Shown: one piece after another, positions 26,591 to 37,220 of the stretch
Numbering within the stretch: the stretch's first letter is position 1
How the letters are laid out: every line of letters begins with the position of its first letter
Source of the DNA: Hypnocyclicus thermotrophus
Lineage (GTDB): Bacteria > Fusobacteriota > Fusobacteriia > Fusobacteriales > Fusobacteriaceae
Direction of reading: 5' to 3'
Length of the DNA stretch: 64,000 nt
Assembly (NCBI RefSeq): GCF_004365575.1
Contig: NZ_SOBG01000001.1
Coordinates: 124,001 to 188,000, forward strand
The notes under the pieces: generated by a model
What the model was told of the DNA's origin: nothing
What the model saw: the letters and a program-made list of their open reading frames with translations, nothing else
Databases searched by the model: none
Made by a program: the position numbers and the translations under genes

Positions 26591-26768
26591 TAAAAAAATT
26601 TGTATATATAAGAGGTAAAAAAAGAGGAATATATAATTATAATATTTAAGAAAAGAAAACAGATACTATATATTATAGATATAAATATTTTTATAAAAAT
26701 TAGATGAGAAAGAAATTTATATAGAAATATAGAACAGGAGATAAGAAATTTTAATGTATAATATATAA

Positions 26769-26808
26769 ATCTAAAATAAAGTGTCATCGATGACACTTTA
26801 TTTTAGAT
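26769..26808. repeat. 40-bp perfect palindrome with GTGTCATCGATGACAC core
   Basis: Perfect 20+20 palindrome overlapping the stop codon of the diguanylate cyclase gene at the end of the Rsb operon. It is a variant of the 16142/23985 family (ATCGAT centre). It could act as the operon's terminator hairpin, although the following bases (TTTATTTTAG) are only partly a T run. The rest of the 268-bp gap to 26529 holds only the shared promoter element. Confidence 0.7.
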
Positions 26809-27601
26809 CACGGAAAAAAACAACTTTATCTTTACTGGTTTTCTTAGCTTTATACATAGCAGTATCAGCATATTTTATCATTTCATAGAGAGAAATTGGA
26901 TTATCTTCTAAAAGACTAGTAGCACCAAAACTAGCAGTAATTTTTTTATCTAAGCTCTTTATTTTTATCTTTTTTAAATTATCTTTTAATTTAGTTAAAA
27001 AAGGGAACGCTTCATCATAATTTATATCTCTAAGAAGAATTAAAAATTCTTCCCCACCGTATCTATAAAGAAAATCTTTTTGTTTAATATTCTTTTTTAA
27101 TATTTTTGATACATTTATTAATACCTGATCACCAATATCATGTCCATAGGCATCATTAATATGTTTAAAATTATCTAAATCTAACATTACACAGAGTAGA
27201 GAACTTTTATTTTTTAATGAATAATTAAAAACTTTTTCTCCTACATTATCTAGAGAAAGTCTATTATAAGCTCTAGTTAAAGGATCTATTTCTACTTGCT
27301 CTCTTAAAACTTGTCTATAATTTTCAAATAAAGTTAGAAATTGTGCGAAAAATTCATTTGCTCTTTTTATATATATCCAATCAATTTTATCATTATCATT
27401 ATTTATTTTTAATATTTGTTTTAAAGCAAGAATATGAATATCAAAAATATCCATTATATCATCAATAATAAAATGGTTTTTTATAAATAAATCATTATAT
27501 ACAGAAATTAAAGCTTCTTCTTCATCATTGTTTAAAAGATATGTTTTAAGCCATTTGGTATAGATATCTTTTATTTCCTGTATATTATCTTCAAAATTCA
27601 A
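26798..27601 (-). CDS. Diguanylate cyclase with RsbU-N-like domain
   Basis: Makes cyclic di-GMP. The C-terminal GGDEF domain (about 105-265) is intact: VEIDPLTRAYNR, DLDNFKHINDAYGHDIGD and GGEEF at residues 182-186. The inhibitory I-site RxxD is replaced by KQKD, so product inhibition is probably absent. Residues 1-95 are helical, acidic and without TM. By eye they resemble the four-helix N-terminal domain of RsbU, which binds RsbT. Last gene of an Rsb operon, 3 bp after the phosphatase gene, with a TTG start behind AGGAGGTG. I infer that RsbT or the switch controls this cyclase. Confidence 0.85.
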   Translation of the reverse strand: MNFEDNIQEIKDIYTKWLKTYLLNNDEEEALISVYNDLFIKNHFIIDDIMDIFDIHILALKQILKINNDNDKIDWIYIKRANEFFAQFLTLFENYRQVLREQVEIDPLTRAYNRLSLDNVGEKVFNYSLKNKSSLLCVMLDLDNFKHINDAYGHDIGDQVLINVSKILKKNIKQKDFLYRYGGEEFLILLRDINYDEAFPFLTKLKDNLKKIKIKSLDKKITASFGATSLLEDNPISLYEMIKYADTAMYKAKKTSKDKVVFFRDLK

Positions 27602-27604
27602 AAT

Positions 27605-28555
27605 TTATTCACCTCCTAGAATAACACAAGTAGCATCATCTATTTTTATACTAAATTCTTTTAAAATTTTTTCTGCAGTTTCTTGATAATCAGTTATATT
27701 TTGTGTAGTGATATAGTTTAAATAAGTATCTTTTATACCATCACTATTTATTATTAATTTTTCTTTATGAAAATTAGTATCAAGAGTTTTTATTGGTATT
27801 TTTCTATCAATTTTTCCTAAAACTCCAGCTTTATTTATTAGTTTTTTAATACCTTTATCTGATAATAAATAAGCACTAATATTACCTATATTAAAATATT
27901 CTAAAAAATTTTTATGAATAATAGAAGCAAAAATTACACATCCTCTTGTATTATGTAACTTATTATTTAAATCTAAATATACTTTATTTAAATTATCACT
28001 TTTAAAATCATTTAAATACTCTTTTATAAGATTTGCTACAAAATAAGCTTTTTCGCCATGACCAAGAGCATCAGCTATAACTACTAAATAAGAGTGATTT
28101 AATTTTTTAATATAAACTAAATCCCCGCTATGTTCTTCAAGGTAATGAGGTCTAGTTGCAACTCCAAATATCAAATTAAAATTTTTATTATTATTATTAC
28201 TTTGTGATAACATAACAGTTATTTCGAATCCATTATATTTATTTTTTTTAATATCAAAAAAAGAAGAATTACTTTTAATTACTTTTAAACCTAAACCTAA
28301 TCCATTACTTAGTTTTAATACCTTTTCATTTTTTTCTCCATAATCAAACGCAATAATTTTTATATTATTTTCGATAAAAGATATATCAATATAACCGTAA
28401 CCACCATATTTTAATATATTTGTAGCCAATTCACGCGTGATTAATAAAACTTTATCGTTAAAAATCAAATTATCTTTTAATAACTTTTTTAAACGAAATT
28501 CTAAAATAAAAATATCATTTTCATCAGAGATATTAATGTGAAGAGGTTCGATCAA
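27605..28555 (-). CDS. RsbX-like SpoIIE/PP2C phosphatase fused to an RsbT-like ATPase domain
   Basis: Two domains. Residues 1-115 are a GHKL (HATPase_c_2) fold with TRELATNILKYG (N-box) and LGLGLKVIKS. Residues 120-316 are a SpoIIE-type PP2C phosphatase with SGDLVYI, VIADALGHGEKA and a late DDATCVIL metal motif. Such phosphatases reset phosphorylated STAS proteins (RsbR/RsbS), like RsbX. The TTG start at 28555 overlaps the rsbT stop (TTGA) behind AAGGAGG. The fused ATPase domain may dock to STAS proteins or have kinase activity of its own. Confidence 0.88.
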   Translation of the reverse strand: MIEPLHINISDENDIFILEFRLKKLLKDNLIFNDKVLLITRELATNILKYGGYGYIDISFIENNIKIIAFDYGEKNEKVLKLSNGLGLGLKVIKSNSSFFDIKKNKYNGFEITVMLSQSNNNNKNFNLIFGVATRPHYLEEHSGDLVYIKKLNHSYLVVIADALGHGEKAYFVANLIKEYLNDFKSDNLNKVYLDLNNKLHNTRGCVIFASIIHKNFLEYFNIGNISAYLLSDKGIKKLINKAGVLGKIDRKIPIKTLDTNFHKEKLIINSDGIKDTYLNYITTQNITDYQETAEKILKEFSIKIDDATCVILGGE

Positions 28556-28983
28556 AATTTACGCCTCCTTTTTTGAATTATTACAATAGTTCCTTTATCT
28601 TTTTCACTATCTATATAAAAATAATCCATTAATCTTTTTACTCCAGATAAACCAAGGCCTAAGCTTGTTTCAGTTGTAGTAAAACCAGAAGTAGTAGCTT
28701 TATCTATATCAGAAATACCAGGTCCATTATCAATAGCAACAATTTCAAGAAATTCATTGTTATTTTCATCAATTAATTTTTTTGCTAAAATGCTTCCTGT
28801 TTTTGCATATCTAAATATATTTCTTGCTAACTCAGAAATGGAAGTAGATATTTTTGTGATATCTGATAAAGAAAATCCTAGTTTTTGACAAAAATGTTTT
28901 ATGCTTTGCCTAGCTAAAATTATATCTTTTTCTTCTTTTACATTTATAATTATTTCATATTGTTGGAAATCAATATTTATCAA
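28552..28983 (-). CDS. rsbT: RsbT-like switch serine/threonine kinase
   Basis: GHKL-family kinase that phosphorylates STAS proteins and, when released, activates an output protein. Seen: ISELARNIFRYA (N-box), AIDNGPGI (G1) and GLGLSGVKRLMD (G2). The best start is TTG at 28983, spaced 8 nt from GAGG, which overlaps the rsbS stop. An in-frame GTG at 28992 lies within that site. About 143 residues, normal for RsbT. There is no sigma-B or RsbW gene nearby. Confidence 0.92.
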   Translation of the reverse strand: MINIDFQQYEIIINVKEEKDIILARQSIKHFCQKLGFSLSDITKISTSISELARNIFRYAKTGSILAKKLIDENNNEFLEIVAIDNGPGISDIDKATTSGFTTTETSLGLGLSGVKRLMDYFYIDSEKDKGTIVIIQKRRRKF

Positions 28984-28993
28984 AAAAATCACC

Positions 28994-29353
28994 TCAATTA
29001 TTGAGTTGCTTTGTCATTTCTAAAGCTTCCTCTAAATCTTTTACAAATGTTATCTCTCTAATATTTACTCCCATTTGAGCTAAGGTAAGAGAAACCATGG
29101 GCTGCATACCACAAATATAAGTATCACATCCAAGAAGTTTTGCCATTTTTGCAGTTTCAGTAAGAGAATAAGATATATAGCTATCAAGAATATCTACCAT
29201 ACTTATATCTAAAATTATACTTTTTAAATTATTTTGTTCCACTTCTTCTAATATTTGATGTTGCATTTTTTCTACAGTGGTATCATCTAATTCAATTTGA
29301 ATAGGTACTATAAGATTCTTATAAAGTTTTATAGAGGTAACGACTCTTTCCAT
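28994..29353 (-). CDS. rsbS: RsbS-like STAS protein (stressosome scaffold)
   Basis: A single STAS domain of 119 residues. Ser58 in DILDSYISY aligns with the RsbT-phosphorylated Ser59 of Bacillus RsbS. GMQPMVSLTLAQMGV is the conserved STAS C-terminal strand-helix. RsbS holds RsbT in the stressosome until phosphorylated. It lies between the rsbR- and rsbT-like genes, the standard order. Confidence 0.93.
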   Translation of the reverse strand: MERVVTSIKLYKNLIVPIQIELDDTTVEKMQHQILEEVEQNNLKSIILDISMVDILDSYISYSLTETAKMAKLLGCDTYICGMQPMVSLTLAQMGVNIREITFVKDLEEALEMTKQLNN

Positions 29354-29369
29354 TTATTCCTCCTTAATT

Positions 29370-30044
29370 TTATTTTTCTAAAATTAAATAATTTAGTGCT
29401 GTTTCTAAGTCTCTTTTAACTATTACCATATTAAAATCAATTCCTATTTTAACTAAAGTATGAGCAATATTTGGTTTTATACCTGTAAGAATTACATTTG
29501 TACCTAATAATTTAATAGCATTAAATGTTTCAATTAAAAATCCACCAACTATTGTATCAATAACATTTACACCAGTAACGTCAATAATAACATATTTTGC
29601 TCTTGTTTCAGAAGTAAATGCTAATAATTTTTCAGCCATTGATTGAGCTCTTTCACTATCTAAAGTACCAACAAGTGGAGCTACAATAATATCTTTCCAT
29701 AGTCTAAGAACAGGAACAGCTAACTCAGAAAGTACATCTTTTACCTCTTCTAAAACAACTTCTTTTTCTTTTAATTTTTCATCACTAAGATCTATTAATA
29801 ATTTAATCAATTCTACAAAAGGAAAACCATTTATTTCTTCATTAAGTGTCTTTAAAGCAGTAAATACTTTTTTAAAGTTGTTTGAAGAAATAATAGGTCT
29901 TAAAGTATTTTTAATTTCAATTTCATTATTCATGTTATTTTGTGCTAAAGTAACTAAAAAATTTTCCCAATACACTTTTTCACTTATAATTTTTGAAAGT
30001 TTAATAGATAAATTTTCTAAATGAGTAATAATATAATCTTTCAT
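29370..30044 (-). CDS. rsbR: RsbR-like stressosome sensor (N-terminal sensor plus STAS)
   Basis: A 224-residue protein. The N-terminal ~105 residues are helical, as in the globin-like sensor of RsbR paralogs; the ligand is unknown. The STAS domain starts near PVLRLWKDIIVAPLVGTLD. Thr157 and Thr164 in IDVTGVNVIDT lie in the loop that RsbT phosphorylates in RsbR proteins, and ILTGIKPNIAHTLV is the second conserved region. First gene of the operon, preceded by AGGAGG and the shared promoter-like element at 30078-30106. Confidence 0.92.
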   Translation of the reverse strand: MKDYIITHLENLSIKLSKIISEKVYWENFLVTLAQNNMNNEIEIKNTLRPIISSNNFKKVFTALKTLNEEINGFPFVELIKLLIDLSDEKLKEKEVVLEEVKDVLSELAVPVLRLWKDIIVAPLVGTLDSERAQSMAEKLLAFTSETRAKYVIIDVTGVNVIDTIVGGFLIETFNAIKLLGTNVILTGIKPNIAHTLVKIGIDFNMVIVKRDLETALNYLILEK

Positions 30045-36967: not shown

Positions 36968-37006
36968 CTATTTTTAAGTTAAAATAATCAAAATTAAATA
37001 AATTTA

Positions 37007-37182
37007 GATGATAGAGGCGCGAAGCTTAAAAGTACAAATATGGAGAAACCTATTCTATGAAGTATTTGGAAAGGAAGATTCGCCGAAGTGTATAACCTTA
37101 GGAAAGTTATATGCTGGTTTTATGGATAATATCCATGAAACTGTCATTATTATTGTAGTATAATAATGGAGTGCTATCTGCT
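37007..37182 (+). promoter_or_regulatory. Lysine riboswitch (L-box) aptamer
   Basis: The conserved L-box blocks are visible in order: GATAGAGGCGCGA, AAAAGTAC, GGAAAGGAAGATTCGCCGAAG-type core (from about 37069), CTGG, ACTGTC (37139-37144) and GGAGTGCTATCT (37168-37179). P1 pairs GATAG (37010-37014) with CTATC (37174-37178). It precedes lysA and the whole lysine/DAP operon. Bound lysine stabilises P1 and so frees the downstream terminator. Confidence 0.93.
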
Positions 37183-37220
37183 AAAAATGGGTGTTATATT
37201 TTACTATAACTTATATTTTC

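Follow-up and report, generated by a model that had tools for sequence, protein, structure and literature searches.

A stressosome operon of Hypnocyclicus thermotrophus with a diguanylate cyclase as its probable output

Hypnocyclicus thermotrophus (Fusobacteriota) carries an rsbR-rsbS-rsbT-rsbX stressosome operon, which, judged from sequence, structure prediction and analogy, probably acts through a diguanylate cyclase with a diverged RsbU_N-type domain that is switched by free RsbT. A direct step from RsbT to the cyclase is considered the best reading, because the N-terminal domain of the cyclase resembles a diverged RsbU_N in profile comparisons, in the ranking against PDB sequences and in fold prediction.

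Gene order and stressosome core

The operon is located on the minus strand at positions 26798-30044 of the window, i.e., the whole stretch of 64,000 nucleotides that was analysed, and consists of five tightly packed ORFs in the order rsbR-rsbS-rsbT-rsbX-GGDEF. Spacers of 16 bp and 1 bp separate rsbR from rsbS and rsbS from rsbT, respectively, rsbT and rsbX overlap by 4 bp, and 3 bp lie between rsbX and the cyclase gene. The following features were assigned:

29370..30044, minus strand: RsbR-like protein, 224 aa, ATG start; putative helical N-terminal sensor of about 105 aa, C-terminal STAS domain
28994..29353, minus strand: RsbS-like STAS scaffold, 119 aa, ATG start; phosphorylatable Ser kept (ILDSYIS)
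28552..28992, minus strand: RsbT-like switch kinase, 146 aa, GTG start; N-box ISELARN, G1 box DNGPGI, G2 box GLGLSG
27605..28555, minus strand: RsbX-like ATPase/PP2C protein, 316 aa, TTG start; ATPase domain aa 1 to about 118, PP2C domain about aa 126-316
26798..27601, minus strand: diguanylate cyclase, 267 aa, TTG start; RsbU_N-type domain aa 1 to about 104, GGDEF domain aa 105-258
27287..27601, minus strand: RsbU_N-like four-helix N-terminal domain of the cyclase (AlphaFold, Foldseek, hhalign)
26768..26809, minus strand: hairpin resembling an intrinsic terminator, 19-bp stem, T-rich tail, overlapping the cyclase stop codon

This gene order had already been described in a sequence-only reading of the window, and Pfam and PDB matches agree with it. 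The Pfam matches (GGDEF 4e-38; STAS 9e-16 in RsbR and 1e-13 in RsbS; HATPase 5e-9 in RsbT; SpoIIE 2.5e-6 in RsbX) place the predicted domain assignments of all five proteins far above chance. For RsbT a second start is possible at an in-frame TTG (28983), three codons downstream of the GTG and better placed behind the ribosome binding site. With the hairpin lying across the stop codon of the cyclase gene, transcription of the five-gene unit probably ends there; one terminator-like hairpin was found where 0.7 would be expected by chance. The operon is flanked by a SulP gene.

Among PDB sequences, the RsbR-like protein matched RsbR chains of stressosomes (E=2e-24) and the RsbS-like protein RsbS chains (E=2e-20), with the phosphorylated Ser aligned. 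Of the phosphorylation sites of Bacillus RsbR (T171, T205), the equivalent of T205 is a Thr (VIDT) and that of T171 a Ser (GTLDSERA). With STAS proteins bearing phospho-sites and an RsbT bearing the kinase boxes encoded in one operon, the predicted RsbR-RsbS-RsbT core of a stressosome is present. The three proteins share 56% (RsbR, over 160 aa), 56% (RsbS) and 52% (RsbT) identity with their counterparts at a Bacillota locus (L027), and in the RsbT tree the window protein falls into a clade with Bacillota RsbT from like operons (support 99/98). According to hhalign, the N-terminal domain of the RsbR-like protein is unrelated to that of Bacillus RsbR, and an RsbU_N or globin-like nature of this domain was ruled out by the same method.

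As noted in the sequence-only reading, no genes for sigma-B, RsbV or RsbW are found within the five-gene operon; an RsbW/RsbV-like pair is encoded elsewhere in the genome (L144), with no sigma gene adjoining it within the 3.3 kb examined.

The RsbX-like protein matched Moorella MtX (PDB 3zt9, E=8e-8), and its PP2C part is nearest to the RsbX of L027 (34% identity). An RsbX-type PP2C gene thus directly follows rsbT, and the extra N-terminal ATPase domain is an addition to the RSTX module. This domain is RsbT-like with a degenerate G1 box (DYGEK) and weakly resembles RsbT as well as ATPase-RsbX fusions, which were also found in Salipiger and Caballeronia.

The active site of the GGDEF domain is intact (GGEEF). 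Its I-site reads KQKD in place of RxxD, so that product inhibition may be weaker. No GAF domain is present and the last helix of the N-terminal domain leads straight into the GGDEF domain. Signalling by c-di-GMP is abundant in this genome, with 28 GGDEF and three PilZ matches.

The N-terminal domain of the cyclase

The Pfam family RsbU_N (PF08673) does not match the window cyclase at E<=5, Pfam and NCBIfam are both blank here, and a genome-wide search with PF08673 gave no match. Because the Pfam model misses the window protein, its orthologues were brought into the analysis; the N-terminal domain is 36% identical to that of the L027 cyclase over 94 aa. Three of the five members of this domain family matched PF08673 weakly (best E=0.0033), and no further family came close. 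In hhalign, residues 8-65 of the family were aligned with an RsbU_N set of Bacilli, Moorella-type cyclases and kinases at a probability of 94% (91.7% after the alignment had been trimmed). The match scored 38.4, whereas 200 column shuffles averaged 11.2 and did not exceed 21.1, and the reversed profile reached 12.0; shuffles and reversal are the valid controls, as circular permutations keep the aligned block and are unsuitable. The match comprises helices 1-3, the last helix being without significant alignment. When the family profile was compared with all PDB sequences, the N-terminal domain of RsbU occupied the top four positions (2j6z, 1w53, 2j70, 2j6y; E 0.023-0.38).

An AlphaFold model of the domain based on a five-row alignment reached a pLDDT of 86 and a pTM of 0.80, with helices at 3-23, 27-40, 49-64 and 75-104; the model computed without alignment had a pLDDT of only 45. 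The top five Foldseek matches of the former were all KaiA C-terminal domains (TM 0.6, probability 0.72-0.90, E 0.7-1.3, best 0.67), and RsbU structures were absent among the 50 matches listed. The KaiA C-domain fold has otherwise been detected only in the N-terminal domain of RsbU, and the proposed RsbT site on RsbU is located where KaiC binds KaiA (PMC11372060). The Foldseek result is supportive of a KaiA/RsbU four-helix fold, though short of conclusive. Each of these tests is modest on its own; combined, they make an RsbU_N ancestry of the domain likely. The resemblance to RsbU_N, originally recognised by eye, is in this way backed by orthologue Pfam matches, hhalign, the PDB ranking and the predicted fold, and the profile and AlphaFold comparisons that had been suggested as a check came out in its favour.

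Contact residues, proposed circuit and alternatives

In a predicted interface (PMC12143880), RsbU contributes the contacts E24, Y28, I74 and I78 and RsbT the contacts R19, R23 and N24, and RsbU R91 and RsbT D92 are marked as well; the exchange Y28I in B. subtilis RsbU abolishes RsbT binding (PMC12143880). Within the subfamily of GAF-less cyclases the equivalents of RsbU E24, L27 and H51 are kept. At the Y28 position the window cyclase has an Ile and its relatives V or L, and a Tyr is found at position 31, one helical turn later, as it is in two proteobacterial RsbU_N-histidine kinases that were compared (L057, L134). Among the other contacts of the window cyclase, I74 is replaced by Ala, I78 by Thr and R91 by Val, the register of the last helix being uncertain. 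Throughout the GAF-less subfamily the R91 position is V or I, and the D92 position of RsbT is S, R or K; within the uncertain register of the last helix, this paired change fits a rebuilt interface. The loss of Y28 may mean either that the interface has been rebuilt with the Tyr one turn later or that the contact differs. The direct RsbT-cyclase circuit of the sequence-only reading is supported in part: the RsbU_N-type domain is supported by profile, PDB and fold tests, and the key contact Y28 is not conserved.

By analogy to Bacillus and Moorella, the circuit would operate as follows. At rest, the STAS proteins RsbR and RsbS would form a stressosome with RsbT bound to it. Once a signal reaches the N-terminal domain of RsbR, RsbT would phosphorylate the Ser of RsbS and the Thr/Ser of RsbR and leave the complex. 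Free RsbT would then bind the dimeric four-helix domain of the cyclase and stiffen the helix that runs into the GGDEF domain, whereby the two GGDEF domains would be brought together and c-di-GMP would be made. The RsbX-like phosphatase, which in this operon carries an additional ATPase domain, would bring about the reset.

Regulation of the cyclase by RsbT could also be exerted through phosphorylation rather than through binding and stiffening of the RsbU_N linker. The passage of PMC4976288 citing Quin et al. 2012 presents the Moorella system as an RsbT homologue that phosphorylates the cyclase, PMC9237108 proposes phosphorylation by RsbT for systems without RsbU_N, and the loss of the Y28 contact would be in line with such a mode of action. 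The window cyclase, however, possesses an RsbU_N-type domain, which in RsbU acts through non-covalent binding of RsbT (PMC12143880), and we regard phosphorylation as rather unlikely. The regulator might instead be the N-terminal ATPase domain of the RsbX-like protein, as it is RsbT-like, is encoded directly upstream of the cyclase and has no counterpart in the phosphatases of the relatives in Bacillota. Since these relatives carry a like cyclase without the fused ATPase, the domain is not needed; its G1 box is also degenerate, and this explanation appears very unlikely.

A view of the N-terminal domain as a helical sensor or dimerisation domain that works independently and is linked to the stressosome genes by co-expression only would agree with the missing Pfam match of the window cyclase and the unconserved key contacts. 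It is hard to reconcile with an operon kept in distant genomes, with the profile and fold support for RsbU_N and with the Moorella precedent, and we give it hardly any credence. Binding of free RsbT to the RsbU_N-type domain remains the preferred reading. As a tentative extension, which we consider somewhat less likely than not, the GAF-less cyclases may constitute a distinct subfamily of stressosome outputs with a rebuilt RsbT docking site (aliphatic Y28 position and Tyr one turn later; R91 and D92 positions changed on both sides), forming a c-di-GMP switch apart from sigma-B-type pathways, in which the RsbR sensor domain would be of an undescribed kind and an ATPase-RsbX enzyme would carry out the reset.

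Distribution and comparison with known systems

When GTDB genomes were scanned with an RsbT alignment, the best matches came from Desulfovirgula, Desulfofundulus and a Thermoanaerobacterales MAG. All five operon genes were read at three Bacillota loci (L027, L028, L029) and four of the five at three others (L026, L030, L140), where an antisense ORF hides the remaining gene in the list of ORFs. At all of these loci (L026-L030, L140) a short homologous cyclase accompanies R-S-T-X. The N-terminal domain of the cyclase is present in 11 of 113 genomes of the class of Desulfofundulus. Within Fusobacteriota, neither the N-domain search nor the RsbT search (97 other genomes) revealed an orthologous module; the only RsbT match at E<=1e-8, in one of the 97 genomes, is a CBS-ATPase fusion outside any such operon. 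Judged by these searches, the operon is an isolated occurrence in its phylum. Its GC content (0.235, window 0.233) shows no sign of recent horizontal transfer, and an old transfer or repeated loss consequently fits the distribution better.

No stressosome paper on this phylum was found in a literature search, and the operon extends the Moorella-type stressosome/c-di-GMP circuit to such a lineage. The minimal RsbU_N-helix-GGDEF output is small, which eases testing how a single RsbT-binding domain can drive phosphatases, kinases and cyclases alike, and the naturally lost Y28 contact provides an existing test case for the evolution of RsbT recognition.

Modules of rsbRSTX with RsbU_N-bearing outputs downstream have been described (PMC9237108). 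The novelty that had been claimed for a direct RsbU_N-GGDEF circuit cannot be upheld, since direct control of an RsbU_N cyclase by RsbT was reported for Moorella thermoacetica by Quin et al. 2012, according to the statement citing that work in PMC12143880. We recovered this operon (L138) with the order R-S-T-X-cyclase, an RsbU_N-GAF-GGDEF cyclase and an RsbX identical to PDB 3zt9. Like MtR-MtS-MtT-MtX-MtG of M. thermoacetica, the window operon ends in a cyclase that begins with an RsbU_N-type domain, and has no sigma factor output. MtG, however, has a GAF domain, a Pfam-detectable RsbU_N and a conserved Y28, in all of which the window cyclase differs; the Moorella RsbX is without ATPase fusion, and the Moorella RsbT is distant (39% identity) and outside the 99/98 clade.

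The Desulfofundulus/Desulfovirgula/Thermoanaerobacterales operons (L026-L030, L140), for which no functional study was found, share with the window the operon type, the short GAF-less cyclase, a homologous RsbR N-terminal domain and the RsbT clade, whereas their RsbX is a single-domain protein (about 203-208 aa). The Bacillus subtilis sigB operon (rsbR-S-T-U) likewise combines an RsbR/S/T core with a downstream output protein with an RsbU_N-type domain, but the protein in question is a PP2C phosphatase, which acts on RsbV and sigma-B, and not a GGDEF cyclase. In Vibrio vulnificus RSTX is also followed by a c-di-GMP-related output, which in contrast runs through a pair of sensor kinase and regulator that lacks RsbU_N (PMC9237108). 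RsbU_N-type domains on signalling enzymes occur as well in proteobacterial histidine kinases, RsbU_N-HD-GYP proteins (L167, L169) and a GAF-less RsbU_N-GGDEF protein (L170) from one genome within the proteobacterial phylum covered by the search; these differ from the window cyclase in their effector domains or in the greater length of a coiled-coil linker. The window operon can be classed as a diverged Moorella-type circuit, and new are the diverged GAF-less subfamily common to the window and Desulfotomaculia-type Bacillota, the finding of the operon as an isolated case within Fusobacteriota and the RsbX-ATPase fusion.

Surroundings of the operon and the RsbR N-terminal domain

Three features of the window are considered here:

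29730-30044 (-), helical N-terminal domain of RsbR, about 105 aa
30335-31864 (+), divergent transporter of the SulP family, which also carries a STAS domain and lies immediately upstream of the operon
37004-37184 (+), lysine riboswitch, matching Rfam RF00168 with 126.5 bits

The N-terminal domain of RsbR is a putative sensor. By hhalign no relation to the N-terminal domains of Bacillus RsbR proteins was detected, and the Bacillota operons have the same domain. A copy of the SulP-family transporter is encoded in another genome of the phylum (G062) at 71% identity.

Partner-switch proteins in the same genome and elsewhere

On contig C6 of the H. thermotrophus genome, near 65079-65420, an RsbW-like ATPase (128 aa) lies beside a STAS-like protein (114 aa); judged by sequence, this locus (L144) is a predicted second partner-switch pair, and no sigma factor gene was found in the 3.3 kb examined around it. 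Within the same order, G062 encodes a 324-aa fusion (L017) of CBS-like domains followed by an RsbT-like ATPase domain.

Two loci lie on records labelled as plasmids, a Listeria record of 2.9 Mb (L018, NZ_CP030101.1) and a Stenotrophomonas record carrying a Bacillaceae-like sigB operon (L021, CP031730.1), which by appearance are chromosomal or misassigned.

RsbU_N-type domains joined to HD-GYP-like domains

In the proteobacterial phylum searched, HD-GYP-like domains, recognized by eye, are joined to RsbU_N-type domains at two loci (L167 in genome G780 and L169 in G700), and a second RsbU_N match adjoins each fusion. This arrangement suggests that c-di-GMP breakdown, besides synthesis, may be under RsbT-type control.
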